DNA of 59,583 nucleotides from Anaerolineae bacterium. Lineage in GTDB: Bacteria > Chloroflexota > Anaerolineae > Aggregatilineales > Phototrophicaceae. Position 1 is the first letter of the stretch, and every line of letters starts with the position of its first letter. The stretch spans positions 1 to 59,583 of the forward strand of contig JAIOHN010000353.1 in the NCBI GenBank assembly GCA_019912985.1. The letters are read 5' to 3'. Below the pieces are notes generated by a model. The model was not told where the DNA came from. It was given only the letters and a program-made list of their open reading frames with translations, and did no database searches. Positions 8,225 through 33,605 of the stretch are shown here, one piece after another. Both the position numbers and the translations under genes were made by a program.

Positions 8225-8256
8225 GGGGGTGGAGAAGTCATCACCCCTATGGGTGA
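8225..8256. promoter_or_regulatory. 32-bp operator copy 1 (oxidase/regulator side)
   Basis: It consists of GGGGGTGGAG, then AAG, then TCATCACCCCTATGGGTGA, whose end is a 16-bp dyad TCACCC-N4-GGGTGA (8241-8256). The reverse complement of copy 2 (10944-10974) matches it apart from a 1-nt indel and four substitutions. Its edge lies 76 bp from the start of the oxidase gene, in the same orientation as copy 2 relative to the propeller gene. Confidence 0.65.
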
Positions 8257-8287
8257 AACGGGCGCAGCAAAGAAAGATTCGAGTCCA

Positions 8288-8315
8288 TTGTCATATAATA
8301 TGCTTCATGTACAAT
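8288..8315 (+). promoter_or_regulatory. sigma-70-type promoter of the LuxR regulator
   Basis: TTGTCA (8288-8293), 16 bp, TACAAT (8310-8315). Transcription would start near 8322, downstream of the GTG at 8229 and just upstream of the well-spaced ribosome site at 8362-8370. This supports the start at 8376. Confidence 0.5.
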
Positions 8316-8375
8316 CTAGATGCTAAAGAGGGTCGGTTGTTTGCTTTTTTGCCGACGAACAAGAGAGGAGACCCG

Positions 8376-18159: not shown

Positions 18160-19176
18160 ATGATGGCCGATATCATGCAGTTCGTGCCGGTGTTGATTGT
18201 GGGGTTCGCCGCTTCACTGGGGCTAACGCCGATCTCACGACAGATTGCCATGCGGCTTGGGGTGGTAGATAAGCCCAACCAGCGAAAAATCCATCTCGAC
18301 CACAAACCCCTGATGGGCGGCTTGGCGATTTACGTGGCGCTGTCATTGGCACTGCTGCTGTTCAGCCCACCGCGTTATCTGGCGCAGTTCGGCGCTGTCC
18401 TGGCCGGGGCGGCTTTTCTGGCGCTGGTGGGGCTGGTGGATGATCGTTACAGCCTGCCTGCACGGACACGTTTTCTGGCGCAGATTCTCGCCGCACTTGG
18501 GCTTGCGCTGATAGGTATTCGCATGAACCTGACTGGCCTGGCGCTGGTCGATATTCCCGTGACGATCTTCTGGGTGGCGGCGATCACCAATGCGGCCAAT
18601 TTCATGGACAACATGGACGGGCTGACCGCCAGCATGAGCGCGACGGCGGCCCTGTTCTTTTTGCTCATCGCGTTAACCCAGGGCCTGAGTCTCGTCAGTA
18701 TGCTGGCGGCGGCGGTGTTGGGGAGTGCACTCGGCTTTCTGGTGTACAATTTCAATCCTTCGAGCACCTTTATGGGCGATATGGGCGCGCTGCCGCTAGG
18801 ATTTATCCTGGCGGTGCTGGCGATCAAGGCCCAGTTTGACCAGCCCTTTTCGGTTTTGTGGGTTGTCCCGGTGTTTGTGCTGGCGCTGCCTGTTTTTGAC
18901 ATTAATCTGGTGGTGTTCACGCGCCTGTTGGAAGGGCGATCACCGGGCGAGGCAGGGAAAGATCACACCTCACACCGGCTGATGAGCCTCGGATTTAGCC
19001 AGCGGCAGACGCTGGTCCTCCTGATTCTGTCTAGTGTCGTGTTCGGGTTGTTGGCACTGTTGGTGAGTGCGTCTCCGGCGGATGTGGCGCTGAAGCTGGC
19101 GATTTTCGGTGTGGGGCTGCTGCTGGTGTTGTTTGGCTTGATGATGTGGGTGCGGCAGCGTTATCAACGCTCATAA
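18160..19176 (+). CDS. undecaprenyl-phosphate sugar-1-phosphate transferase (WecA/MraY family)
   Basis: A 338-residue polytopic membrane enzyme with the family signatures in order: PNQRKIHLDHKPLMGGL, VGLVDDRY, NAANFMDNMDGL, FNPSSTFMGDMGALPLG and the HTSHRL cytoplasmic loop. It transfers a UDP-sugar phosphate to a polyprenyl phosphate, the first membrane step of a glycan. Size and motifs fit WecA/TagO better than MraY. It begins a plus-strand group of sugar genes to 24113 and so probably primes that polysaccharide. Starts at ATG 18160 or 18163 after GAGGAAG. Confidence 0.88.
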   Translation: MMADIMQFVPVLIVGFAASLGLTPISRQIAMRLGVVDKPNQRKIHLDHKPLMGGLAIYVALSLALLLFSPPRYLAQFGAVLAGAAFLALVGLVDDRYSLPARTRFLAQILAALGLALIGIRMNLTGLALVDIPVTIFWVAAITNAANFMDNMDGLTASMSATAALFFLLIALTQGLSLVSMLAAAVLGSALGFLVYNFNPSSTFMGDMGALPLGFILAVLAIKAQFDQPFSVLWVVPVFVLALPVFDINLVVFTRLLEGRSPGEAGKDHTSHRLMSLGFSQRQTLVLLILSSVVFGLLALLVSASPADVALKLAIFGVGLLLVLFGLMMWVRQRYQRS

Positions 19177-19248
19177 GCGGACATTTAGCCTGTTGTAAAC
19201 TCCCTGTTCGATAATCAAGTTCTTATTGACTTACCGTTAAGGGAAATC

Positions 19249-20187
19249 ATGACAGAAACCTATGTAGTTACAGGCGGCGCAGGATTCATCGGCTCTCATC
19301 TGGTCGAGCGGCTGCTCAAAGACGGCCATCGTGTGCGCGTGGTGGATAATCTCTCGACCGGCAAGCGAAGCAACCTTGCGCACCTTTCCGGGTATGAGTT
19401 TTACGAAGTCAGCATTACCGATAAAGACGCGCTGCTGCCCGCTTTCCAGGGTGCGGATTATGTGCTGCATCAAGCCGCACTGCCCTCGGTCCCGCGCAGT
19501 GTGGCCGATCCGCTGGAAACGAACGAGCATTGCGTCACTGGCACACTCAATGTGCTGCTGGCCGCACGTGATGCTGGCGTGAAGCGAGTGGTGTATGCGG
19601 CCTCGTCGTCCGCTTACGGCGATGTCGAAGCGGAGTTTAAGGTCGAGACGATGCCGCCGAGTCCGTTGTCACCCTATGGGGTCGCCAAGCTGGCAGGCGA
19701 GTATTATTGCAAGGCATTCACAGAATGTTATGGACTGGAAACGGTCTGCCTGCGTTATTTTAATGTGTTTGGGCCGCGTCAGGACCCGATGTCGAAGTAC
19801 GCGGCGGTGATTCCGCTGTTTATTACGTCCATGCTGGATGACCAGCCGCCGACCATTCATGGCGATGGCTTGCAGTCACGGGACTTCACTTATATTGATA
19901 ACGTGGTCCATGGGAATCTACTGGCGGCCAAAGCCGGATCAGCCGCTGCTGGTGAAACGATGAATATGGCGACAGGTGGGCGCGTGAATTTGCTGGAGCT
20001 GGTCGCCAAGATCAATCACGCGCTGGATAAAGACATCGCACCGATTCATGGCCCTGAGCGCTCCGGTGACATCAAACATTCGCGTGCCGATATTCATAAG
20101 GCACAATCGCTGCTGCACTATGAGCCGGTAGTGGAATTTGATACCGGGCTGGCACGAACCATCGATTGGTACCGCAACCAGAGTTAA
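19249..20187 (+). CDS. NAD-dependent nucleotide-sugar epimerase (extended SDR)
   Basis: 312 residues. The Rossmann motif GGAGFIGSH is at the N-terminus, followed by VDNLSTG. The catalytic Ser lies in AASSSAYGD and the Tyr/Lys pair in SPYGVAKLAGEYY. A substrate-binding segment FNVFGPRQDP follows. This is the UDP-glucose/UDP-GlcNAc 4-epimerase-like group, and the exact sugar is not resolved. It is the second gene of the glycan cluster and its stop is 7 nt before the next start. Confidence 0.88.
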   Translation: MTETYVVTGGAGFIGSHLVERLLKDGHRVRVVDNLSTGKRSNLAHLSGYEFYEVSITDKDALLPAFQGADYVLHQAALPSVPRSVADPLETNEHCVTGTLNVLLAARDAGVKRVVYAASSSAYGDVEAEFKVETMPPSPLSPYGVAKLAGEYYCKAFTECYGLETVCLRYFNVFGPRQDPMSKYAAVIPLFITSMLDDQPPTIHGDGLQSRDFTYIDNVVHGNLLAAKAGSAAAGETMNMATGGRVNLLELVAKINHALDKDIAPIHGPERSGDIKHSRADIHKAQSLLHYEPVVEFDTGLARTIDWYRNQS

Positions 20188-20194
20188 GGCGAAT

Positions 20195-21319
20195 ATGCGC
20201 GTTCTTCACATCATCAAGGTTACAGGAATCGCCGGGGCAGAAACCCATTTGCTCACGCTGCTGCCCGGTCTGCGCGAACAGGGGGTCGAGCCAGAACTGG
20301 TGGTGCTGGTCGAACCCGGTAAGCCCATGACCGAATACTGTGATCTGATACGTACGCAGGGTGTGCCGGTTGAACAGGTTGAAATCAGGCGTGATGTGGC
20401 CCCGGCGCTGTACCGGCGGCTGCGGTCTGTGATTCGCGCCCATGCGCCGCGCATCGTTCACACGCATCTGCTGCACGCTGATCTGTACGGCATTCCAGCG
20501 GCACGACTGGCGCGCGTACCTGTGATCATCAGCAGCCGCCACAACGAAAATGCCTTTCGCCGTCGCTTCCCCTACCGCCAGATCAATGGCCTGCTATGGC
20601 GCAATCTCAAAGCTGGCATCGCCATCTCGGATTCGGTGAAGCATTTTGCGATTCAGGTTGAAGGCGCACCAGCATACAAAGTGCATACCATCTACTACGG
20701 CCTGCCGCATGACCCGCAACGTGCTGCCGAGCGCCCGCAAGTGCGTGCCGCCAAACGTGCCGAACTGGGCCTGAGCGCCGACGAAGTGGTGGTGGGTATG
20801 GCCTGCCGCCTGGTCGCACAGAAGGGTGTGGACTATGGGCTGCGGGCTTTTGAGCATATTGCGCCGCGTATTCCTCAGGCGCGGCTGGTGATTGCTGGTG
20901 ATGGGCCGCTGCGCCAGAATCTGGAAAAAGAGGTTCAGCAGTCGCAATATATGCGTGAACGGGTGCAGTTTCTGGGCTGGCGCGATGATGTGCCGGACTT
21001 GATGGCGGCATTTGATGTGCTGCTGATGCCCAGCCTGTGGGAAGGGTTTGGATTGGTCGCGCTGGAAGCGATGGGGGAACGTGTGCCAGTGGTCGCGAGC
21101 ACGGTGAGTTCGCTGCCGGAGATCGTGATGCCGGGCGAAACCGGTCTGCTGGTGCCGCCGCAGGATGCCTACGCGCTGGCAGAGGCGCTCACGACGCTGT
21201 TGAGTGATCGCCCGCTGCGGCAGCACATGGGTCTGATGGCCGAAGACCGCCTGGAAACGCAGTTCAGTGCTGAGCGCATGATCTCACAGACGGCGCGCCT
21301 TTATCACCTGCTGACCTAA
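20195..21319 (+). CDS. GT4 glycosyltransferase
   Basis: 374 residues with a GT-B fold. The N-terminal domain opens MRVLHIIKVTGIAGAETHL. The C-terminal donor site has the EX7E-type motif (WEGFGLVALEAMGE) after VAQKGVDYGLRAF and IAGDGPLR. It likely adds a sugar from a nucleotide donor to the lipid-linked chain. The start at 20195 is 7 nt after the epimerase stop, next to AAGGCGAA. Donor and linkage cannot be read from sequence. Confidence 0.88.
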   Translation: MRVLHIIKVTGIAGAETHLLTLLPGLREQGVEPELVVLVEPGKPMTEYCDLIRTQGVPVEQVEIRRDVAPALYRRLRSVIRAHAPRIVHTHLLHADLYGIPAARLARVPVIISSRHNENAFRRRFPYRQINGLLWRNLKAGIAISDSVKHFAIQVEGAPAYKVHTIYYGLPHDPQRAAERPQVRAAKRAELGLSADEVVVGMACRLVAQKGVDYGLRAFEHIAPRIPQARLVIAGDGPLRQNLEKEVQQSQYMRERVQFLGWRDDVPDLMAAFDVLLMPSLWEGFGLVALEAMGERVPVVASTVSSLPEIVMPGETGLLVPPQDAYALAEALTTLLSDRPLRQHMGLMAEDRLETQFSAERMISQTARLYHLLT

Positions 21320-21335
21320 GTGGTAGAATGGCTTT

Positions 21336-21815
21336 ATGAAAAGGAATGAACAAGGCATGGTAGAGGTGGAACCCGCACGTCGCATACTCGACGCGATCAG
21401 CCAGGATTCATCCCGTACAACTGGCCCGCTGCTGCGCCGGCTGACGCTGACGCTGCTGCCACCGCTGGTGCTGTTTCTGATCACGATGATCGCTGGCGGT
21501 TATCTGCGTGTTTATCTGGAACTGGAATTTCAGGACAGCAGCCTCAATACACTTACGGCTATTTCAACTTCGCTGCTTACGCTGGTCGTCGCGTGGTGGG
21601 CGATACGCTGGACGGAGAATCGCTTCCACGGGCTGAAGAGTTTGCGCCAGTTGATACAGGTGCTGGGCAGTGCGCGTGTGCTAGAGCGAGAAATGACCAG
21701 TCAATCTCCAGGCATGGATACGGAAGCCGATGCTGCACAAGCCTGGCAAGATTACTGCGTTTTTGTCGAAAATCTGGGACTGACCCCACCTGCTGCTGAC
21801 CCGATCAGGGAATAA
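21336..21815 (+). CDS. small two-TM membrane protein in glycan cluster
   Basis: 159 residues with no recognised family. Two hydrophobic helices (about 40-62 and 73-91) are flanked by charged cytoplasmic-looking segments. It lies 16 nt after one glycosyltransferase and one base before the next, so it is translated with the cluster. It might organise the enzymes at the membrane; that is a guess. A second ATG at 21357 is an alternative start. Confidence 0.65.
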   Translation: MKRNEQGMVEVEPARRILDAISQDSSRTTGPLLRRLTLTLLPPLVLFLITMIAGGYLRVYLELEFQDSSLNTLTAISTSLLTLVVAWWAIRWTENRFHGLKSLRQLIQVLGSARVLEREMTSQSPGMDTEADAAQAWQDYCVFVENLGLTPPAADPIRE

Positions 21816-21816
21816 C

Positions 21817-22956
21817 GTGCCGCGCCTGCTGTATCTTGTGAATATCCCCCGCTTTTTTGTGTCCCACCGGCTGCCGCTGGCACTGGCGGCGCGGGATGCC
21901 GGATATGATGTGCATGTCGCCACATCGAACGATGACGCAGTGCATGTCAACACCATCCTGAAGGCGGGGCTGCCGTTTCATCCGCTGCCGCTTAGCCAAC
22001 ATGGGACAAATCCGCAGATGGAAGTCGCCACGATTCGCGCGATTGACCGGCTGTATGGGCAGCTGGAGCCGGACATTGTGCATCAGGTGACGATTAAAGC
22101 CATCCTTTATGGTGGCATGGCGGCACGTCGTCATCGAGTTCCGGCGGTGGTGAATGCGGTCAGTGGGTTAGGATCAATCTTCACCACGCCAGGATTCAAA
22201 GCCGCATTAATGCGCGGTGGTGCGAAAACTGCGTACCAACTGGCACTGAATCACCCCAATTCATACACCATTTTCCAGAATCCTGACGATAAAGCGTTGT
22301 TTGTCCGCAGTGGTTTGATCGCGGAGGCGCGCACACGTGTGATTAAGGGCTCAGGTGTGGATATGGATATCTTCCAGCCCCAGCCTGAACCGGAAGGCAC
22401 GCCGGTCGTGCTGTTTGCGGGACGGCTGCTGTGGCAGAAGGGTGTGGGCGAATTTGTCGAGGCGGCGAAAGCCCTGCGTGATGCTGATGTGCAGGCACGT
22501 TTCGTGATCGCCGGCTACAGTGAACCCAGTAGTCCAGATGCGGTCCCGCCGGAAACACTGGAAGCATGGCAGGCCAGCGGCGCGATCGAATGGTGGGGCA
22601 AGCGCGAGGATATGCCCACCGTCTTTGCTCAATCGCATATTGTCTGCCTGCCATCATCCTATGGTGAGGGTGTGCCGAAAGTGTTGATCGAAGCCGCTGC
22701 CTGCGGGCGTCCCCTGGTTACGACTGACAGCCCGGGCTGCCGTGAAATCGCGCATCACGAGGATAACGGCCTGTTGGTTCCTGTGGGTGATGGGGCCGCA
22801 CTGGTCGCCGCGTTACGCCGTTTGATCGAGAATCCGACCCTGCGCCAGCAGATGGGCCGCCGCAGCCGCCAGATCGCTGAGCGCGAGTTCTCCCTGGAGC
22901 ATGTTTGCAGCGCGACCCTGGCCCTGTACACGGAACTACTGGAGCGGCGTTCGTGA
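21817..22956 (+). CDS. GT4 glycosyltransferase (capsule-type)
   Basis: 379 residues with a GT-B fold. The N-terminus MPRLLYLVNIPRFFVSHRLPLA resembles capsule-type GT4 enzymes. The donor domain has AGRLLWQKGVGEFVEAA and SYGEGVPKVLIEAAACGRP (EX7E-like). Start is GTG 21817, one base after the preceding stop, which indicates coupled translation. The last four bases overlap the next gene. Confidence 0.85.
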   Translation: MPRLLYLVNIPRFFVSHRLPLALAARDAGYDVHVATSNDDAVHVNTILKAGLPFHPLPLSQHGTNPQMEVATIRAIDRLYGQLEPDIVHQVTIKAILYGGMAARRHRVPAVVNAVSGLGSIFTTPGFKAALMRGGAKTAYQLALNHPNSYTIFQNPDDKALFVRSGLIAEARTRVIKGSGVDMDIFQPQPEPEGTPVVLFAGRLLWQKGVGEFVEAAKALRDADVQARFVIAGYSEPSSPDAVPPETLEAWQASGAIEWWGKREDMPTVFAQSHIVCLPSSYGEGVPKVLIEAAACGRPLVTTDSPGCREIAHHEDNGLLVPVGDGAALVAALRRLIENPTLRQQMGRRSRQIAEREFSLEHVCSATLALYTELLERRS

Positions 22957-24113
22957 AACCTATTCGCATCATGTATATCATCACACGGCTGAGTATCGGC
23001 AGCCCGGCGATGCATGTCACACTGCTGGCGGAGAAGATGGGCGCGCCAGATTATGAGAGCATGCTCGTCTGTGGCATGAGCGAACCCCACGGCGGTGATA
23101 TGCGCTATTTCGCGGAGGAACATGGTGTTCAGCCCGTGTTTATCCCCAACCTCGGCGGGCCGATCAATCCGCTAACCTATATAAGGGTAATCCGGCAGCT
23201 TTACGGTTTGATGCGTGAATATCAGCCCGATATCGTCCACACCCATCTGGCGAAGGCAGGCTTTGCCGGGCGAATGGCTGCGATGCTGGTGGGGGTGCCG
23301 GTGGTGGTGCATACCTTCCATACCCATAGTTACTACAATCACTTTGGGCCGGTGATGACTCGCGTGCTGACCCTGCTGGAACGACTGCTGGCCCGCCGGA
23401 CGGATTCGATTATCACGCTGACGCAGAATCTGCGCCGCGAGCTGGCGGATCACTATCACATCACACGCAAAAGCCGGATTACCGTGCTGCCGCTGGGGTT
23501 GGATCTTTCGCGCTTTGCTCAAACCCCGCGCAAGCAAGGGGTGTTCCGCCAGCAGTGGGGCATTCCATCAGATGTGCCGCTGGTGGGCATTGTGGGACAA
23601 CTCAGCCCGGTCAAAGATCCGCTGCTTTTTCTGGATGCCGCCGCGCTGGTGCGCCAGCAGATGCCAACCTGCCGCTTTGTCATTGTTGGCGATGGTGAAA
23701 TCCGCGCGGAGATTGAAGCGAAAATCCAGGTGCTGAACCTGCAATCGGCGGTCACGATGACCGGGTGGCTATCTGATCTAACCTCGCTGTACAGCGATCT
23801 CGACTTGTTGGTCAACAGCAGCACCACCGAAGGCACGCCGACTCCGATCATGGAAGCGCTGACCGCAGGTGTACCAGTGGTCGCGACTGCCGTGGGTGGT
23901 GTACCGGATATGCTCGACCACGGGCGGCTGGGGCTGCTGGTATTCGCGCACCATCCTGAAACACTGGCGGATGCGATCCAACTGGCGCTCAGTGACCCGC
24001 AGGATACCCAGGCGGGCCAGGAAATCATGCTCAACCGCTATGGGATTGACCGCCTGATTCGTGACCTCGATAGTCTGTATCGTGGTTTGCTGGCGAAAAA
24101 AGGCCGGATTTAG
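22953..24113 (+). CDS. GT4 glycosyltransferase
   Basis: 386 residues. It opens VKPIRIMYIITRLSIGSPAMH. VHTHLAKAGFAGRMAA and VHTFHTHSYYNHF form the acceptor side. GIVGQLSPVKDP and SSTTEGTPTPIMEALTAG form the donor site with the EX7E-like pair. The start is GTG 22953, overlapping the previous stop in a GTGA junction. This is the last gene of the glycan cluster. A 160-bp gap with no obvious terminator separates it from the metal exporter. Confidence 0.87.
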   Translation: MKPIRIMYIITRLSIGSPAMHVTLLAEKMGAPDYESMLVCGMSEPHGGDMRYFAEEHGVQPVFIPNLGGPINPLTYIRVIRQLYGLMREYQPDIVHTHLAKAGFAGRMAAMLVGVPVVVHTFHTHSYYNHFGPVMTRVLTLLERLLARRTDSIITLTQNLRRELADHYHITRKSRITVLPLGLDLSRFAQTPRKQGVFRQQWGIPSDVPLVGIVGQLSPVKDPLLFLDAAALVRQQMPTCRFVIVGDGEIRAEIEAKIQVLNLQSAVTMTGWLSDLTSLYSDLDLLVNSSTTEGTPTPIMEALTAGVPVVATAVGGVPDMLDHGRLGLLVFAHHPETLADAIQLALSDPQDTQAGQEIMLNRYGIDRLIRDLDSLYRGLLAKKGRI

Positions 24114-25839: not shown

Positions 25840-26448
25840 TTAGCGGCAGGGTTGCAAATCCATCCAATCCGCCATGGTGTAGTCGAATGCGAAGTAGGTT
25901 GTGCGCAAAAGACGATACTGTACCTCGACCGGTGTGTACCAGAAGCTATCACTGCGCATGGGGCAGCGAGTCAGGCCGCTGATCTCCGCCCCGTTGATTT
26001 CAAAGCGCACGGTGTGACCCAGGCCAGAGGTATTGAGCGGCGTATAGATGATGCCGGTTTCGGGGGAGCCGAGGAGTGCGAAGATCATCCCATTCGAGAG
26101 TGTGGTCCGAATGCGAATTGCTTCAACCACCGAGCCAGACGCGCGAAAGTGACCATCGAAATCCGTATCAATCCACGCCGGTTGGCGGCCACTCCACTCA
26201 AAATCGTAGAAGCTGGCGCTTTTATGGACTGCTGTAATCCACTCGTGATTTTCCAGCAGCCGCACTGCCTCGTCGACTGATGTCCAACCGGGGCGAACAC
26301 CCAGCCAGCAGGGAGCAGGGCAGCCAGCAGGTGGGAGAAAAAAAGTGCGCAGATCCGCGTCACCCACTGGCTGAAGATGGATAATCAGGAGAGGTACCAG
26401 CGCCAGCGGTGTGATTCGCGTCAGGAGATGCCACCATAATCGCAGCAC
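25840..26448 (-). CDS. four-Cys membrane-anchored paralogue 7
   Basis: 202 residues, unknown family, last gene of the operon. The N-terminal hydrophobic helix (~12-26) predicts a membrane anchor or signal with the body outside. Family marks are CPAPCW (Cys43, Cys47), VRPGWTSVDEA, FEWSGRQP, SNGMIFALLGSP, Cys162 with Trp170, and C-terminal Cys201. Four conserved cysteines suggest two disulfides. HEWI replaces the usual HPWV. It starts 16 nt after paralogue 6. Together with paralogue 4 it is among the most divergent copies. Confidence 0.8.
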   Translation of the reverse strand: MLRLWWHLLTRITPLALVPLLIIHLQPVGDADLRTFFLPPAGCPAPCWLGVRPGWTSVDEAVRLLENHEWITAVHKSASFYDFEWSGRQPAWIDTDFDGHFRASGSVVEAIRIRTTLSNGMIFALLGSPETGIIYTPLNTSGLGHTVRFEINGAEISGLTRCPMRSDSFWYTPVEVQYRLLRTTYFAFDYTMADWMDLQPCR

Positions 26449-26464
26449 AGGTATTCACCCCTAC

Positions 26465-27106
26465 TCAACACAGTTTCAGATATTGCGAATGAGGCGCGAA
26501 GCTGGCCCCGCGCATGGGCCCCTGGCTGAGCGTGATGGTGGGTTGAATGTGCCAGTACGATTGACGCGCCATCGGGCAATCGACCTCAATCAGCAGCGTG
26601 AGATGTTCACGCGGGTAAGAATACTGGATGAAGGCTTCGTGCTGGTAACGGCCACGGCTTCCCCAGAATGGCGCGCCAAACAGCAACTGCAAATCACCCA
26701 TGCCGATATTCAGCGGTAGGGTTAGCGAAAAAACGCGGCCATTGCTGAGAACCGCCTGGCCGGGCGTGGTCGAGTCGATCAATGCGGGCTGCATGCCGCT
26801 CCACTGCCAGCATAACTTGTTACGGTCGAAACGCTCAATACTCTCCGATTGCACCCAGGGATCAGTTTGCAGCAGACGTATAAATTCTTCAGTCGTGGTC
26901 TCGCCGGGGCGGATATGATGCCAGCAGGGCTTCGGGCAGTTCGCTGGTGATTGCAGCAGGTGACGCAACGGGTCGTCGCGGTAGGGCTGCGCACGGATGA
27001 GGCCAATACACAGAGCGAACAGGCTGCTGGCAATCACGCCGTACTTCAGCAGCGCCAGCCGCCAGTCGCCGCGCTCAAGCCGAAGCGGTATCCACTGCTC
27101 AGGCAT
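26465..27106 (-). CDS. four-Cys membrane-anchored paralogue 6
   Basis: 213 residues, unknown family. A charged N-terminal extension of ~18 residues precedes the hydrophobic helix (~19-38), which leads into IRAQPYRDDPLRHLL. Family marks are CPKPCW (Cys57, Cys61), IRPGETTTEEF, DPWV, WQWSGMQP, MGDLQLLFGAP, Cys177 with Trp185, and a final Cys213 as the last residue. Two further cysteines (33, 99) are specific to this copy. ATG 27106 overlaps the end of paralogue 5; a GTG immediately before it is an alternative. Confidence 0.8.
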   Translation of the reverse strand: MPEQWIPLRLERGDWRLALLKYGVIASSLFALCIGLIRAQPYRDDPLRHLLQSPANCPKPCWHHIRPGETTTEEFIRLLQTDPWVQSESIERFDRNKLCWQWSGMQPALIDSTTPGQAVLSNGRVFSLTLPLNIGMGDLQLLFGAPFWGSRGRYQHEAFIQYSYPREHLTLLIEVDCPMARQSYWHIQPTITLSQGPMRGASFAPHSQYLKLC

Positions 27107-27725
27107 CACAGGTCATCACCTGCCCCGGCATCAGCCCCGGTATTTTGCCAACCCCATTGATGCCATCCACCCAGTAGATGCTCACAGGCGTCTGCCAGAA
27201 TTCCATGATGGAGGCTGTGCAGGAAACCTGGAACAGAATGAAGAACGAGCGGCTGACATAGGCGCTGTTGACCTGAATGAGCGTATCGCCGAGGGGATAG
27301 ACATTGGACCAATCGGGATCGCCCAGGAAGAGCAGCATCACCCCCAGCGGTACCGTCGTGCGGATTTCAATGTTCTTAACCATGTTGCGGTTATCAACCC
27401 ACAGGCTGTTGGAGTTTTCTTCAGGGATGAACGCGGGTTTATCCGGCGACCAGCGCCAGTGCATCCAGCCTTCGCCGTAGTCCGCATAAAGATCAGGGAT
27501 GATCTGCGCGACCCAGGGATGAGCGCGCAGCCGTGGCAGCGCCTCATCTTTGCTGGTCACACCGGGGCGAATACCTTCCCAGCAGGGCGCAGGACAATCA
27601 GCCAGCAGCACACGCGCCAGCGCGGGATTGGCAGATTGTGGCTGCATTCTCACGAGGCCCACCCCGGCAGCAAATAGAACCAGCAGCAGCATGAACGGTT
27701 TCCAGAGCAGGTGAAGGAGGGTCAT
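27099..27725 (-). CDS. four-Cys membrane-anchored paralogue 5
   Basis: 208 residues, unknown family. Hydrophobic helix ~10-26 then VRMQPQ. Family marks are CPAPCW (Cys44, Cys48), IRPGVTSKDEA, HPWV, WRWSPDKP (in place of WSGQQP), LGVMLLFLGDP, Cys169 with Trp177, and Cys206 three residues from the end. It starts 3 nt after paralogue 4. The linker between the tryptophan motif and the GxxLLFLG motif is longer than in most copies. Confidence 0.8.
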   Translation of the reverse strand: MTLLHLLWKPFMLLLVLFAAGVGLVRMQPQSANPALARVLLADCPAPCWEGIRPGVTSKDEALPRLRAHPWVAQIIPDLYADYGEGWMHWRWSPDKPAFIPEENSNSLWVDNRNMVKNIEIRTTVPLGVMLLFLGDPDWSNVYPLGDTLIQVNSAYVSRSFFILFQVSCTASIMEFWQTPVSIYWVDGINGVGKIPGLMPGQVMTCDA

Positions 27726-27728
27726 GAT

Positions 27729-28364
27729 TCAGCACAACTCGTCTGGTAGCCAGCCGCGCAGGTCGGACGGGGCGTAGGGAGTCATCCACGCGCCGACATA
27801 ACGCGGGATGCGGCCAATAATGACTGCGGTCAGCGAATGCCACAGATCCACAGCACGCGCGCTGCACGTGATCTGGCTCTCGACGTAGATGTCACCGTCA
27901 TATACCGAGAGATAGATCAGGCGGTTCGAATCGTGGAGCATATCACGATAAATCTGCACCTCGCGCGGCTTACCGAGCAGCATCCACACATCGACATAGG
28001 CGCGAAAACCGGGCAAATAAATCTGCGTCACGCGGTCTTCGTCCAGCCAGACATAAGCCAGTTGGGCGATGCGGCGTTGAATAGGTTGTAACGTGCTCCA
28101 CTGCCAGTAAATCTGACCGGGGTTCTGGCCCAGATGGTAGCCAAGCTCTCCGGCAGGGGCGTATGAAGCGAGGATCGTCGAGGCTTCGGTGACGGTCGTA
28201 TCGTGCAGGCGGATGGCGTTCCAGCAGGGCAGCCAGCAGCCCGGTTGCGGGGCCAGCAGCTTTTGCAAGCCGCCATCGTCATAAGGCTGGGCGCGGATCG
28301 TGCCGATCAAGCTGGCGAACAGGAGCGCCAGCAGCGCGGCTGTTTTCACCAGCGGGCGGATCAT
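27729..28364 (-). CDS. four-Cys membrane-anchored paralogue 4
   Basis: 211 residues, unknown family. Hydrophobic helix ~6-22 then IRAQPYDDGGLQKLL. It keeps CWLPCW (Cys43, Cys47), WQWSTLQP, VDVWMLLGKP, Cys167 with Trp175, and a final Cys211. It lacks the PG of the IxPG motif and the HPWV box, so it is diverged but not broken. Its start overlaps the phosphatase stop by 4 nt. Confidence 0.8.
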   Translation of the reverse strand: MIRPLVKTAALLALLFASLIGTIRAQPYDDGGLQKLLAPQPGCWLPCWNAIRLHDTTVTEASTILASYAPAGELGYHLGQNPGQIYWQWSTLQPIQRRIAQLAYVWLDEDRVTQIYLPGFRAYVDVWMLLGKPREVQIYRDMLHDSNRLIYLSVYDGDIYVESQITCSARAVDLWHSLTAVIIGRIPRYVGAWMTPYAPSDLRGWLPDELC

Positions 28365-28939
28365 GCCGTTCCCCCGGCGGCAAACTCTCGAATGCTGGCG
28401 CGCTGGCGGCGGTTGGGCCAGATGAAGGGGCGCACTTTACGGATTTGTGCCCAGGCTTGTTCGGGTGTCAGGCCGGTGCTGACGAGATAGGCGGCGGCCA
28501 GAGTCGGCGCGCGCCCGACGCCAACGCCACAGTGGATGTAAACGCCGCCGCCCTGTTCGACCTGCTGGCGAATAAAATCGACGCCGGTACGCAGGGTTTC
28601 CTGGGTTGGCGCGGTGTTGTCTTCGGTGGGGAGATGCAGATACTGCGACAGGCCGACTCCGGCGGCAGCATCGTCAAATTCGCGGCGCAGGTTGATGACG
28701 GCGGTGATGCCTCGCCCTTCCAGGGCAGGTAGTCCCTGCGGCCAGTGCTGGCCGCCGACATGCAAATGCGGGGTGATTTGGCTGTAACGCTCCAACGGCG
28801 CGCCGGTCAGACGGCGGTAAAGCTGATCATAGACGCGCAGCGAAATGACCGCGGGTGTGCGCTTGGTCAGCCAATCCCACGCCATGCGCAGCGGAGAATG
28901 GGTAATTTCGCGTTGGGGTGCCTGGCTTATCTCTGACAT
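28361..28939 (-). CDS. dual-specificity protein phosphatase-like
   Basis: 192 residues. The HCX5R signature is HCGVGVGRAPT (Cys137, Arg143), with Asp107 (PTEDNTAP) as probable general acid. This is the cysteine-phosphatase fold that cleaves phospho-Ser/Thr/Tyr or non-protein phosphates. There is no signal peptide, so it is cytoplasmic. It interrupts the paralogue array and is translationally tied to both neighbours: its start overlaps paralogue 3 and its stop overlaps paralogue 4. ATG 28939 is preferred (GAGAG upstream), with 28960 as alternative. Its substrate is unknown. No kinase is adjacent, but a STAS-like gene is in the same operon. Confidence 0.85.
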   Translation of the reverse strand: MSEISQAPQREITHSPLRMAWDWLTKRTPAVISLRVYDQLYRRLTGAPLERYSQITPHLHVGGQHWPQGLPALEGRGITAVINLRREFDDAAAGVGLSQYLHLPTEDNTAPTQETLRTGVDFIRQQVEQGGGVYIHCGVGVGRAPTLAAAYLVSTGLTPEQAWAQIRKVRPFIWPNRRQRASIREFAAGGTA

Positions 28940-29550
28940 ACGGAAATCTCTCGTCGCCATTGTGGCGCATCATAATTGACAAAATCGGCAATTCGCCGGT
29001 TGTGGTCGATCAGGTCGTGCTCCATGATTAATGATACCGGCTGTGTCCAAATATGACCGACATGGATCGGGCAGGAGAGGCGGCTGTACAGCGCGAACTC
29101 CTGGTAGACTGCCGTGTGGACGATGTAAGGTGTGCCGCGCAGAGCGACATACGAGGCTTCTAACGGCTGCTCGAATGCCAGCAGCACCTCGCCAAATGTC
29201 AGCCGGGTGGGGATCATCACGCTGATGACGCGATCCCATCGTGTCGCCAGTGACCCCCGGCGTGTGCTGTCGATGTAGCCGGGCTGCTGGCCGCTCCAGG
29301 CCCAGGTGATGGTAGGACTGCTTAAATCCAATCCCATGACCCAGGGGTGTGTCTGAAGGATACGAATGGCCCGCGTGACCTCGCTTTCGCCGGGGACGAT
29401 CCCCTGCCAGCAGGGCATGGCGCAGGGTTCCGTGACCAGCGCATTTAAAGCACTGTCATCCGCCTGATGGCTGTTGATGACGCCGATCATGAGCGCAAAT
29501 GCCAGGCTCAAGCCGCCGGTCAGGGTCCACCAATCACGCAGACGCAGCAT
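28927..29550 (-). CDS. four-Cys membrane-anchored paralogue 3
   Basis: 207 residues, unknown family. Hydrophobic helix ~9-26. Family marks are CAMPCW (Cys43, Cys47), IVPGESEVTRA, HPWV, WAWSGQQP, FGEVLLAFEQP, Cys160 with Trp168, and Cys205 two residues from the end. The start 29550 lies 4 nt after paralogue 2 and fits the family's N-terminus; upstream in-frame codons do not match any sibling. The 3' end overlaps the phosphatase start. Confidence 0.8.
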   Translation of the reverse strand: MLRLRDWWTLTGGLSLAFALMIGVINSHQADDSALNALVTEPCAMPCWQGIVPGESEVTRAIRILQTHPWVMGLDLSSPTITWAWSGQQPGYIDSTRRGSLATRWDRVISVMIPTRLTFGEVLLAFEQPLEASYVALRGTPYIVHTAVYQEFALYSRLSCPIHVGHIWTQPVSLIMEHDLIDHNRRIADFVNYDAPQWRREISVCQR

Positions 29551-29554
29551 GGCT

Positions 29555-30166
29555 CTACCGCAGCCGATCACAAATGGTCCGGCGTACATGGGCCATATCA
29601 TAGTATTCACTACCCGGAGGGAGTTGATACTGCCGGGTGCTGATGAAGACATCCGAGCGGGCAGTCCAGAAATGGGTGCAGCTGGCACGGGCGCGGATCG
29701 AAAACCCCTGCGCCGTGTACTCCGCGAAATGATACACCGAGTCAATCGCGCCGCGTTCCGGTGCGCCGAAAATGAGCCAGATATCGCCCATTGTCAGGGT
29801 GGTTGGCAGGCTGATGCTGGTGATCATGTTCCCCTGTGCGGCGGATGTGCCGGAGCGCAGGCCGTTGAAAAAAGGCGGCTGCTGGCCGTTCCAGCGCCAG
29901 TTGATCGTCTGGTTGTCACCAGCACTTTCCGTGATGTACACCGCCCGCACCCAGGCATGGTGATTGAGCTTATCCAGCGCAGTCTGGGTATCCATCCCTG
30001 TGTACAGTCCCATAAAACACAGTGCAGGGCAGTCCTCATGGCCGATGAACAGTGTGCGCACCAGCTCGATGCTGCTGTAATCGTACGGCAGCACATGGAT
30101 GATCCCCACCAGCGGTGCCAAACCTCCCAGCAGCAGCAGTATCAACCGGGTCACGATTGCAGCCAT
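29555..30166 (-). CDS. four-Cys membrane-anchored paralogue 2
   Basis: 203 residues, unknown family. Hydrophobic helix ~7-25 then HVLPYDYSSIELVRTLF. Family marks are CPALCF (Cys46, Cys50), WRWNGQQP, MGDIWLIFGAP, FSIRARASC (Cys163) with Trp167, and VRRTIC (Cys199). Closest sibling by eye is paralogue 1: both have Phe after the second Cys and the VRRxxC tail. It starts 2 nt after paralogue 1. Confidence 0.82.
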   Translation of the reverse strand: MAAIVTRLILLLLGGLAPLVGIIHVLPYDYSSIELVRTLFIGHEDCPALCFMGLYTGMDTQTALDKLNHHAWVRAVYITESAGDNQTINWRWNGQQPPFFNGLRSGTSAAQGNMITSISLPTTLTMGDIWLIFGAPERGAIDSVYHFAEYTAQGFSIRARASCTHFWTARSDVFISTRQYQLPPGSEYYDMAHVRRTICDRLR

Positions 30167-30168
30167 GA

Positions 30169-30759
30169 TTACCCCCGCTGACAGACCTGACGCCGCACCT
30201 GTGGCAGGTCGTAGTCTGTCGGCATAAACTGATCCTTGATGATGAGTGTACCGCGACTCCGCCAGAAATTCCGGCAGCTTGCCAGGGTCCGCAGCGAAAA
30301 ATAGTGCGCCGGGTAATCTGCCAGGTGATACTGTGCGGCGATTCCTTTTTGAGGTGCGCCCAAAGCCAGCCAGAGATCGCCAAAGGAAAAGGCTGTGTGG
30401 ACGAAGACGTAATCGAGCCGGTTGGAAGCCAGTTCAATGCCGCCTGTTTCGCTGGCGTCGATGAATGTAGGCTGCTGACCGCTCCAATTCCAGGAAATGG
30501 TCGCGATGCCCAGCGACGACCGGCGTGTATCAAGTTCCGCCACCCAGGGATTGTGTTTCAGAATATCCAGCATATCAGATGGGGTGAGGCCGGGATAGAT
30601 GCCGAGGAAGCAGGGTTGGGGGCAATCTGGTGGGGTGTTGAGGAAGGCGCGGAGGCGCTGCGAATAACTTTCGTTGTAGGCCAGCCCTCGCAGAGTCGCC
30701 ATCAGTATTAGCAGGACGATCACGCTGCGCAGGCTCAAACGCCAGACGATGATCAGCAT
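30169..30759 (-). CDS. four-Cys membrane-anchored paralogue 1
   Basis: 196 residues, unknown family, first of the array. Hydrophobic helix ~8-27. Family marks are CPQPCF (Cys46, Cys50), IYPGLTPSDML, NPWV, WNWSGQQP (90-97), FGDLWLALGAP, FSLRTLASC (Cys162) with Trp166, and VRRQVC (Cys193). The N-terminal helix and paired cysteines suggest an oxidised domain outside the membrane. It starts 6 nt after the flippase gene, so it belongs to the same transcript. Confidence 0.82.
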   Translation of the reverse strand: MLIIVWRLSLRSVIVLLILMATLRGLAYNESYSQRLRAFLNTPPDCPQPCFLGIYPGLTPSDMLDILKHNPWVAELDTRRSSLGIATISWNWSGQQPTFIDASETGGIELASNRLDYVFVHTAFSFGDLWLALGAPQKGIAAQYHLADYPAHYFSLRTLASCRNFWRSRGTLIIKDQFMPTDYDLPQVRRQVCQRG

Positions 30760-30765
30760 TACGCC

Positions 30766-32250
30766 TTACCAATTCACGGCCACATCACGCTTCCAGTAGC
30801 GCAGGATGAACGTGCCGCCGGGCATGGCGGCCAGGAGCCGGTAGAGCAGGTCCCAATCGGTGGGAGTCAACACCCGTGCCAGCCCGAAAGCGTAGACCAC
30901 CGCCCCGGCCACGATCCCAAGCAGGAAATGCACCTGCCCTGCTGCCAGCATCACCGCCGCCACCACCAGCGCCACGCCGCCAAGGCGCAGCCAGTGCGTG
31001 AGGATGCGCCGCTGCTCCCATCCCGGCGCGTGGAAACCGTAGAGGAGCACTGTCAGCACCAGGATTTCCGCCAGCAGTGAGGCCACCGCCGCACCACTGA
31101 TTCCCAACGGGATAATCAAGAGGATGTTCATGATGATGTTGCTGCCCAGTCCTATCGCGCGGACGACAAGCAGTCGCCGCTGCCGATTCTGCGTGACCAA
31201 TGCCTGGGCGAAGACATTGGTGACCATTGCTGCGGTGGCGTACCAGATCAAAATCCGCAGGACCGTGACAGTCGGGCTGTAGTTCGCGCCAAACAGAGGA
31301 ATGATGATGTGCGAGGCGAACAGCGACAGCACCAGCGCAATCGGCAGGCTGATAACGAGGGTGAAGAATGCCAGCTTCTCGACGATAAAGCCGAAGGTTT
31401 CGCCCTCGCCGTGGTAGCGTGACATCATCGGGTAAGTCGCGGTCAGAATGGTGGTGTTGAGCAGTTCGATCACGCCAAAGATAACGACAAAAGCCGCGGT
31501 CAGATAACCGGTCTGCGTGGTGTCGATGAGGCGGGTGGTCATGAGCTTGTCGGCGTGCTGGTAGGCCAGTGATAAAAAGGCCGAGGCCGCCAGCGGTGCA
31601 CCGTTGACCAGTAGAGGCCGAGCGATGCTGCGGTCCAGCCGTTGAAGGCGAACGCCGCCGCGCAGCACCAGCGCCCACAACAGGCTGGAGCGGATTAATC
31701 CCGCCAGCAGGGTGGCGATATAGACTCCAAGCAGGCCGTAATTCAGCGTCAGCGCCAACGCCGCCAGTCCGATCAAAATGAAGATGTGGCAGATGGCAAC
31801 CAGCGACGATGCCAGCATCCGTTCCTGCGCCAGCAGGACGTCGTTGGTCATGTTGCCGAGGATGTCTACCAGCAGGCTGATGCTCGCGATGGTGAGGTAA
31901 TACTGGATGTCGGCAGGGTAGCCACCCAGCAATGCTGCGCTGTTGACCAATGCATAAGCCGCCACGGCCAGCAGGCTTTGCATGATGAGGGTGGCTGTCA
32001 GGTATTTACCGGCCTGCGCAGGATTGCGGGCGACATCGCGGATGACGATTGGCCCCATGCCGAAGTTCACGATGGCGGTACCGACCGCAATAAACGAGCT
32101 GACTGTGCCGTAGATGCCGTAATGGGTTTCGCCCAGCGCCCGTGCAAGCACGATGTACCAGACGAATAATACGCCTTTGCTGATGACGCTGGCAGCGGCG
32201 ATGGCCCCGGCGTTGCGCGCAGCGCGGCGCGCTTCAGCGGGCGAGATCAA
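30766..32250 (-). CDS. polysaccharide flippase (MOP/Wzx superfamily)
   Basis: A 494-residue protein with 12-14 predicted membrane helices. It opens SVISKGVLFVWYIVLARALG and YGIYGTVSSFIAVGTAIVNFG, as in oligosaccharide flippases. Such proteins move lipid-linked glycans across the membrane. No glycosyltransferase is in this operon; the nearest sugar cluster ends at 24113 on the other strand. It sits between the STAS-like gene (18-nt gap) and the paralogue array (6-nt gap), so an export role linked to the paralogues is possible. Confidence 0.88.
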   Translation of the reverse strand: MISPAEARRAARNAGAIAAASVISKGVLFVWYIVLARALGETHYGIYGTVSSFIAVGTAIVNFGMGPIVIRDVARNPAQAGKYLTATLIMQSLLAVAAYALVNSAALLGGYPADIQYYLTIASISLLVDILGNMTNDVLLAQERMLASSLVAICHIFILIGLAALALTLNYGLLGVYIATLLAGLIRSSLLWALVLRGGVRLQRLDRSIARPLLVNGAPLAASAFLSLAYQHADKLMTTRLIDTTQTGYLTAAFVVIFGVIELLNTTILTATYPMMSRYHGEGETFGFIVEKLAFFTLVISLPIALVLSLFASHIIIPLFGANYSPTVTVLRILIWYATAAMVTNVFAQALVTQNRQRRLLVVRAIGLGSNIIMNILLIIPLGISGAAVASLLAEILVLTVLLYGFHAPGWEQRRILTHWLRLGGVALVVAAVMLAAGQVHFLLGIVAGAVVYAFGLARVLTPTDWDLLYRLLAAMPGGTFILRYWKRDVAVNW

Positions 32251-32268: not shown

Positions 32269-32649
32269 TCACGACAGCCATTCTTCCAGCACAGCCTGTG
32301 CGGCCTCGTCGGTGGGGACGAAGCGAATCAGTCGCTCAGAGTCTTGGTACACTCCCTGTTCACCGCCAATCTGCCGGGCAAGCGTCTCATCCAATCCGAT
32401 AATTACCACGCGGTCGCGGCCATTGGGGTGGATTTTCTTGCCGAGGCTGCGGATGTGACCGAAAGCACCGGCAGGCAGTTTATGGCTGGCGCGCAGATCG
32501 ATCACCAACTCCACCGGATGATCGACTGAATCGAGCCAGAAGGTCATGCGGCGCAGGTTTTTGTGGAAATCATTCCAGTTCCATGTTCCGTCGACGACCA
32601 TGCGAATCACGGTCTGAGCGTCATTGTCCCAACGATATTCAATGCCCAT
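32269..32649 (-). CDS. STAS/SpoIIAA-like domain protein
   Basis: 126 residues. The alternating beta-alpha pattern fits SpoIIAA-like/STAS folds: IEYRWDNDAQTVIRMVVDG, then HPVELVIDLRASHKLP, and VVIIGLDETLARQIG. Such domains act as phospho-switch antagonists or lipid-binding modules. No Ser in a clear DSxG-type phosphorylation site is visible, so it is not a plain anti-sigma antagonist. It lies 5 nt after the SH3b gene. A phosphatase further down the same operon makes a regulatory link conceivable but unproven. Confidence 0.65.
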   Translation of the reverse strand: MGIEYRWDNDAQTVIRMVVDGTWNWNDFHKNLRRMTFWLDSVDHPVELVIDLRASHKLPAGAFGHIRSLGKKIHPNGRDRVVIIGLDETLARQIGGEQGVYQDSERLIRFVPTDEAAQAVLEEWLS

Positions 32650-32654
32650 GATGC

Positions 32655-33605
32655 TCAGCCCGGAATATTCGATACAGGTCGGAAACGCCGAATCCAGTAA
32701 TCACCGGGGCCGCCCTCGGCCAGCCAGCCGATCACATCAGGCCGGGTGATAACCTGAATCTGCCACCAGTTGAGATTGTTGGCGCAGACTGGCCCGGCGA
32801 TGATGTTAAATGCCACGCCATCGACCATTGTGTACAGCACAGGCGAGTCGGTGCCGGGATCGCTGCGGATGCGGCGCGGGATGTTGGTTTTGGCCGCGTT
32901 GACATAGGCTTTCGTGCCGACTCCCAGTCCGTGCAGCGGCGGTGCGCACAAATTCCCCGCTTCAAGCGAAGGACCGGGCGGCAGTGCCAGCCAGGGGATA
33001 GCACCCCCGTAGCCCTCGGCTACCCAACCGCGCACCAGGACATCGCTGGTCGGGCTGGCCGGGACTGTGATCTCCCACCAGTTGAATTCGTCCACACACA
33101 GCGGCCCGCCGACAATCGTCACATCGGTATCAATCAAGGCGACTGTCAGCACCAGTGATTCCAACCCCGGTTCCGCGCGGACACGCAGCCCGCCGCTGGT
33201 AACTGGCACGGTTTGACCGATGCTGAGCGGGATCGGTTCGCTGCATAGGGTGGATGGATCCGGGTCCGCCCGGAAGATCAGATAACGCCCGCCAGGGCTT
33301 TCTTTTTCGGCGATCCAGCCGGGGTTGTAGTTGATCGGCCCGCGCACATGCCACCAGTTAATGCCGTCGGCGCACACCGGGCCGTCGGTAATACGGAAGG
33401 TGATGCTGCTATCCAGATATTCGACGATGCCGCCGGAGATGGTCGGCAGATTGCGGATATAAATGCCAGGGCGTGTATGAATGCGCAGTCCTGGCCCCAG
33501 GTCAAGCGGCTGTCCACAGCCGGTCCCTTGAGCGGCAGCGGGCAGCGAGGCACTCAACAGGGCAACGATCAGCAGCAGGAATAAAAATGGATGGCGTTTC
33601 GGCAT
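32655..33605 (-). CDS. secreted protein with three SH3b-like repeats
   Basis: 316 residues. Signal peptide 1-25 (hydrophobic core, AAAQ cleavage). Three tandem bacterial SH3-like domains follow, each with a VRAEPG/IHTRPG/IRSDPG-type arginine-proline turn, a central GP[VL]C segment and an NWW[EHQ][VI] strand. Such domains bind cell-wall or other surface ligands. It is the first gene of the eleven-gene operon, with a promoter 24-52 bp upstream and GGGAGGTG as ribosome site. Confidence 0.8.
   Translation of the reverse strand: MPKRHPFLFLLLIVALLSASLPAAAQGTGCGQPLDLGPGLRIHTRPGIYIRNLPTISGGIVEYLDSSITFRITDGPVCADGINWWHVRGPINYNPGWIAEKESPGGRYLIFRADPDPSTLCSEPIPLSIGQTVPVTSGGLRVRAEPGLESLVLTVALIDTDVTIVGGPLCVDEFNWWEITVPASPTSDVLVRGWVAEGYGGAIPWLALPPGPSLEAGNLCAPPLHGLGVGTKAYVNAAKTNIPRRIRSDPGTDSPVLYTMVDGVAFNIIAGPVCANNLNWWQIQVITRPDVIGWLAEGGPGDYWIRRFRPVSNIPG

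Follow-up and report, generated by a model that had tools for sequence, protein, structure and literature searches.

An Array of Seven Four-Cysteine Paralogs with a Predicted YjgB-Like Domain, Linked to a Polysaccharide Flippase Gene in an Anaerolineae Bacterium

The surface-glycan biology of the Chloroflexota is little known. Here, we describe seven paralogous genes in a 59,583-nucleotide stretch of DNA from Anaerolineae bacterium (GenBank assembly GCA_019912985.1, contig JAIOHN010000353.1; the whole stretch is called the window below). The open reading frames (ORFs) lie between positions 25840 and 30759, all on the minus strand, encode proteins of about 200 residues (196 to 214), and stand next to a gene for a polysaccharide flippase (Table 1). 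They belong to a new sequence family, restricted in lineage and organized in arrays, that represents a variant of a fold type already known. The genome is a 7.3-Mb draft (93% complete, 8% contaminated), in which at least five further copies lie on other contigs (three on C105 and one each on C228 and C954).

Array and sequence family

Intergenic spacing along the array consists of 2- to 16-bp gaps or short overlaps, and the end of a dual-specificity phosphatase gene overlaps the start of the 27729 copy (copies are named by their first coordinate) by 4 bp; this tight spacing suggests that array, flippase, and phosphatase form a single operon-like run. A preliminary description of the window, made from the sequence, had reported seven adjacent genes. 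All seven paralogs are there, but their adjacency is broken by the phosphatase gene, which separates the 27729 and 28927 copies (fourth and fifth by coordinate).

Pairwise identity among the seven proteins is 20 to 36%. Nine alignment columns are invariant (C43, C47, L65, W85, P90, P129, C162, W170, and C201, in the numbering of the 25840 copy), among them the four cysteines and the tryptophan (W170) previously noted in every copy. The rest of the common plan drawn up at that time holds less strictly, as HPWV, IxPG, and W-x-W-[SN]-G-x-Q-P are present in the majority of copies and are not universal; the 27729 copy has IRLHD and WSTLQP and no HPWV. With a profile built from members on other contigs and in other genomes only, all seven copies scored E values of 7e-55 to 5e-44, against a best E value of 0.63 among 3,500 shuffled controls. 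The similarity is therefore real, chance is excluded, and the seven belong to one family, as first proposed.

The family was not recognized by Pfam, NCBIfam, PHROGs, PADLOC, or PDB sequences, and stray single-member database matches near E values of 0.001 to 0.1 were taken as chance. PADLOC-DB gave no match to known anti-phage defense, and a literature search on Anaerolineae paralogs and flippases found nothing relevant.

Among 101 genomes (that of the window and 100 relatives), 91 had a family match at an E value of ≤1e-3, with 1 to 20 copies per genome and, in many, just one or two full-length copies. In this sample, full-length four-cysteine members were confined to the window's own taxonomic family. 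Profile scores exceeded 100 bits within that family and reached at most 66 bits outside it (class- and phylum-wide samples), where matches covered the first ~168 model positions only, without the part that holds Cys3 and Cys4. Because the outside matches stop there, the four-cysteine array family looks like a family-level elaboration, in sequence terms, of a wider set of CxxPCWxGIxPG proteins. Those proteins in the Anaerolineae (e.g., L084) share the first ~168 positions and the N-terminal cysteine pair and differ by the absence of the C-terminal Cys3/Cys4 part; at least one of them (L084), unlike the present family, looks like a lipoprotein. A search for related loci with a set of closer homologs returned 14 loci, and the named relatives carrying the locus are Anaerolineae metagenome genomes, e.g., Anaerolineae bacterium CFX9.

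Table 1. Genes of the array and its surroundings in the window, with examples of a recurrent small membrane protein at related loci
Feature	Position	Strand	Length	Remarks
Paralog 1	30169..30759	-	196 aa	Adjoins flippase; reciprocal best match of L048_6842 (flippase-adjoining copy in another genus, G022)
Paralog 2	29555..30166	-	203 aa	
Paralog 3	28927..29550	-	~207 aa	Listed ORF extends to 29745, plausible start ~29550; reciprocal best match of L047_6118
Dual-specificity phosphatase	28361..28960	-		Inside array; DSPc, E = 2e-18 (Pfam)
Paralog 4	27729..28364	-	211 aa	Among the most divergent copies; reciprocal best match of L047_7346 and L100_7144, each directly after a phosphatase, in two other genera; AlphaFold model mf0676329878d, pLDDT 89.8
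Paralog 5	27099..27725	-	208 aa	Reciprocal best match of L047_8776, L056_7332, and L062_7116
Paralog 6	26465..27109	-	213-214 aa	Extra Cys33 (membrane helix) and Cys99; reciprocal best match of L047_8187
Paralog 7	25840..26448	-	202 aa	AlphaFold model mb63c1865b7fa, pLDDT 91.6
Wzx/MATE-type polysaccharide flippase	30766..32250	-		Polysacc_synt_3, E = 6e-21; 6 bp upstream of paralog 1; conserved partner
STAS-like protein	32269..32649	-	126 aa	Label from the preliminary description; no Pfam match; conserved upstream of flippase
Secreted SH3_3-repeat protein	32655..33605	-		Upstream of flippase, in G022 (L048) too
Divergent glycan-synthesis genes	18160..24113	+		WecA-type sugar-phosphate transferase, nucleotide-sugar epimerase (by sequence), GT4 glycosyltransferases
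Small membrane protein (C3), examples	L047:12747-13262; L053:9965-10441; L054:6122-6592			

Disulfides and topology

Counted over 124 homologs, the putative ectodomain holds exactly four cysteines in 115, two in 4, six in 3, and five in 2. Loss of Cys3 is accompanied either by loss of Cys4 (L054_7957, L046_6558) or by a new cysteine 3 to 4 residues before Cys4, and this replacement of the C-terminal pair occurs in seven proteins from two separate groups of the tree. Such joint loss or replacement implies, as far as co-variation can tell, disulfides between Cys1 and Cys2 and between Cys3 and Cys4. A thiol-redox or metal role for the CxxxC pair was set aside, since the co-loss and replacement of Cys3/Cys4 fit structural disulfides and no oxidoreductase fold was seen. 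The 26465 copy has an unpaired ectodomain cysteine, Cys99, and is one of two odd-count members among the 124.

Across the same 124 members, the N-terminal hydrophobic 17-mer has a mean hydropathy of 2.3, with a mean net charge of +1.2 before it and −0.3 after it. A lipobox-like motif was found in 1 of 124 members, so the proteins do not class as bacterial lipoproteins. Hydrophobic segment, charge bias, and near-absent lipobox together fit a single-pass signal anchor with the N terminus inside and the C terminus outside; the predicted cytoplasmic tails have few residues in most copies. By prediction, the original picture of membrane-anchored, extracytoplasmic, disulfide-stabilized proteins is supported.

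Predicted fold

Structures of the 25840 copy (AlphaFold2, 98-member alignment) and the 27729 copy were predicted with mean predicted local distance difference test (pLDDT) values of 91.6 and 89.8. In both models, a long N-terminal helix leads into a compact alpha/beta ectodomain, and the core elements come in the same order despite 20% identity, although the underlying alignments share many members and the models are therefore not fully independent. VIA structure comparison returned the same five best matches in the same order for both models: Bacillus subtilis YjgB (4ygt; Z scores of 10.1 [3.0 Å over 125 residues] and 9.5 [3.5 Å over 127 residues]), Escherichia coli YfeY (2qzb; 8.0 and 7.5), CAP-associated domain 4ifa (6.8 and 6.1), the TagH ectodomain (9a4o; 6.4 and 6.0), and CAP-associated domain 4h0a (6.2 and 5.5). 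We find this agreement between two predicted models more persuasive than any single Z score; the values below the YjgB match lie in a range where a common arrangement is possible. One Foldseek match among viral structures (E value of 2.6e-4, template modeling score of 0.4, root mean square deviation of 13.7) was not used.

By predicted structure, the family has the YjgB fold, but the profile of the corresponding Pfam family, DUF4309 (PF14172), does not detect it: a Pfam scan of all 98 alignment members gave no DUF4309, and the PF14172 hidden Markov model run against this genome reached at best 12 bits, on another contig, and found no family copy. The fold is thus probably a known one though the sequence family is new, and the earlier statement that no named family with this signature was known stands for the databases listed above, with DUF4309/YjgB as the nearest solved structure. 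Literature searches on DUF4309, YjgB, and YfeY turned up mainly an unrelated E. coli alcohol dehydrogenase sharing the name YjgB.

With YjgB (10 to 11% identity to the window models), the likeness is that of an extracytoplasmic alpha/beta domain, while the paralog array and the four-cysteine frame set the present family apart. YfeY (7 to 9% identity) is known as the product of a lone lipoprotein gene outside any array, and the CAP-associated N-terminal domain is fused to an SCP domain, which the present family lacks. The C-terminal ectodomain of TagH, a teichoic acid exporter ATPase, is likewise membrane tethered and belongs to a surface-glycan export system; it is fused to an ATP-binding cassette (ABC) ATPase there, and the 9a4o match is to an integrative model, for which a Z score of 6 can reflect a common arrangement.

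The order of elements in both models fits two halves, one of which (model residues 48 to 114 only) aligns with a half-domain of BLIP at a weak Z score of 4.6; hhalign found no internal sequence repeat between the halves, so that the two-halved reading is a structural one. BLIP-like proteins (BLIP, SmpA_OmlA, PepSY, and DUF2874) occupy the same kind of cell compartment and are mostly envelope domains with binding or inhibitory roles (PMC2954215).

This relationship raises the alternative that the copies are a BLIP-like inhibitor or immunity set, each blocking one extracytoplasmic enzyme (either a toxin from a competitor or an autolysin, protease, or glycan hydrolase of the cell itself). Arrays of diverged paralogs are typical of immunity loci. 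The nearest structures, moreover, belong to or resemble a superfamily for which inhibition has been proposed (PMC2954215). We nevertheless consider an inhibitor set unlikely, if the likeliest of the alternatives, as the conserved neighbors include no toxin or lytic enzyme gene, PADLOC gave no match, and the copies persist as orthologs across genera, unlike fast-turnover immunity genes.

Conserved neighborhood

Family copies have an ortholog of the flippase within 5 kb in 9 of 28 genomes, one of an AsnB-type amidotransferase in 9 of 22, and one of the phosphatase in 7 of 21, against 0.12, 0.10, and 0.08 expected, i.e., far more often than by chance. The preliminary description had proposed, as a test, that other genomes would also show the association with flippase and phosphatase, and this was borne out. 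The STAS-like protein and a small membrane protein, C3, are likewise conserved neighbors, and the composite gene order, which no single genome has whole, reads SH3 protein, STAS-like protein, flippase, copies, phosphatase, copies, AsnB, and C3. The family thus shows the conserved linkage to a flippase and glycan genes that marks a component of a surface-polysaccharide export operon. Two genomes (G009, locus L102, and G027, locus L103) have the genes for STAS-like protein, flippase, and phosphatase side by side with no family copy among them, apparently the operon minus its array; this suggests an older STAS-flippase-phosphatase unit that either received copies by insertion or lost them.

C3 is a membrane-anchored protein of ~160 residues with no Pfam family above the cut-off; it recurs at the array end, often beside AsnB. 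At another locus (L063:9562-10137, G005), a putative Uma2-type endonuclease gene separates a family copy from AsnB. In G022, L047:2255-6115 encodes a Ser/Thr protein kinase that also has an SH3 region and perhaps a lectin-like one; here a kinase accompanies the phosphatase of the array.

The phosphatase embedded in the array with its 4-bp gene overlap, the upstream STAS-like protein, and the G022 kinase gene, which ends 2 bp before the array, would suit sensor ectodomains that read the state of the envelope and feed a switch in which phosphatase and Ser/Thr kinase relay the signal. We think this improbable, given that the kinase was seen at one locus and that the cytoplasmic tails are too short for a signaling domain in most copies.

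Evolution of the copies

In a quick tree of 124 members, whose deep forks are not resolved, the window copies are not monophyletic and are scattered among copies of other genera. By Shimodaira-Hasegawa approximate likelihood ratio test (SH-aLRT), the 27729 copy groups with G022 and G026 copies (99), the 26465 copy with a G022 copy (98), the 27099 copy with G022 and a set drawn largely from a single other genus (92), the 30169 copy with a G005 copy (90), the 28927 copy with G022 and G023 copies (87), the 25840 copy with a G008 copy (81), and the 29555 copy with a G022 copy (80); the 29555/30169 pair is the nearest exception to cross-genus grouping. Since copies of different genera are interleaved in the tree, recent local amplification was rejected as an explanation. 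Five window/G022 pairs are reciprocal best matches, each outscoring the best paralog in the window's own genome (e.g., 172 versus 60 bits, though for the 30169 copy the margin narrows to 134 versus 124). In the window genome and in G022, the phosphatase is flanked by the same two orthologs, and in G026, too, it directly precedes a 27729-type copy. Ratios of nonsynonymous to synonymous substitution (dN/dS) in the ectodomain are 0.08 to 0.39 in close ortholog pairs. Judged by these sequence comparisons, the array is old, largely orthologous, and under purifying selection.

Ordered, anciently diverged, tightly spaced paralogs could also suggest fixed stoichiometry, i.e., structural subunits that each hold one position in a hetero-oligomeric outer-surface assembly, with glycan genes adjacent by accident of co-regulation. 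The one or two full-length copies of many genomes show that a fixed set is not required, however, and no secretion or assembly ATPase is linked, so that we rate such an assembly as improbable too, by a shade more than the sensor switch. A ligand-recognition or self/non-self set with diversifying surfaces, as envisaged in the preliminary description, is very unlikely, for although strong divergence round a fixed cysteine frame and 1 to 20 copies per genome would suit it, an old orthologous set under purifying selection (at the dN/dS values above) speaks against rapid variation, as do the window copies' grouping with other genera in place of their neighbors (29555/30169 coming nearest to an exception) and a partly conserved operon order with orthologs at the same positions in other genera.

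Proposed role

We give roughly even odds (about 0.5) to the reading that the proteins act outside the cytoplasm as diversified adaptors or regulators in the export or assembly of surface glycan. The seven copies would be a fixed set of membrane-tethered subunits, each with a YjgB/DUF4309-like (BLIP-like) alpha/beta ectodomain locked by Cys1-Cys2 and Cys3-Cys4 that may offer one specific partner a platform for binding on the outer face of the membrane. Candidate partners are a segment of the glycan or an enzyme that polymerizes, amidates, or attaches it, and the site of action would be the outer face, where the surface polysaccharide delivered by the flippase is assembled; the cytoplasmic phosphatase may adjust the same glycan pathway. 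Computation supports the unity of the family, the predicted fold, the disulfide pairs (by co-variation), the age and orthology of the array, and the conservation of its neighborhood, whereas the topology in the cell, binding as such and its targets, and any effect of the phosphatase on glycan output are inferences. A binding role is proposed by analogy, because known BLIP-like envelope proteins are thought to act by binding (PMC2954215), as may be the case for CopD, whose ectodomain was placed in the BLIP-like superfamily and which controls PBP1a and PBP2b (PMC10653890). For a tethered domain in a glycan exporter, the TagH ectodomain is a precedent (fold match at Z scores of 6.4 and 6.0); an extracellular domain of the TagGH exporter has been described (PMC11466899).

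Several points weigh against a role in glycan export or assembly. Foldseek searches of the PDB gave weak matches only (best, 4ifa; E value of 9e-3), and we know of no established function for DUF4309, YfeY, or CAP-associated domains, so the fold predicts none. In the co-location probabilities, related genomes count as independent, so the values are indicative only. For many copies, a 12-gene run in G008 included, the neighbor is AsnB instead of the flippase, and around many lone copies no glycan gene is recognized. Signaling genes (Ser/Thr kinase and histidine kinase) occur in the same contexts, so the operon may be concerned with signaling.

On present evidence, this is not a new kind of system, and the genomic context is informative without being decisive. 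A bolder version of the adaptor reading is speculative and unlikely: Chloroflexota would possess a new class of modular outer-face polysaccharide machinery, a family-restricted set of YjgB-like subunits locked by disulfides, in which every subunit would read or hold its own portion of the flippase-exported glycan and which would have no counterpart in the Wzx/Wzy or ABC-type export of other bacteria. As a family-restricted, high-copy set linked to flippase, amidotransferase, and phosphatase, the proteins offer a concrete handle on envelope building; they add a large branch, invisible to sequence profiles, to the DUF4309/YfeY/CAP-associated fold, and their many orthologous copies provide sequence depth for locating binding surfaces.

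Other genes in the window

Two plus-strand genes appear, from sequence only, to encode large regulators. The first (171-4883) predicts a 1570-aa STAND-type protein with an XRE-type helix-turn-helix (HTH), a TPR-like region, an NB-ARC-like NTPase, and WD40 repeats; the second (8229-10934) predicts a 901-aa NB-ARC/TPR regulator with a C-terminal LuxR-type HTH.

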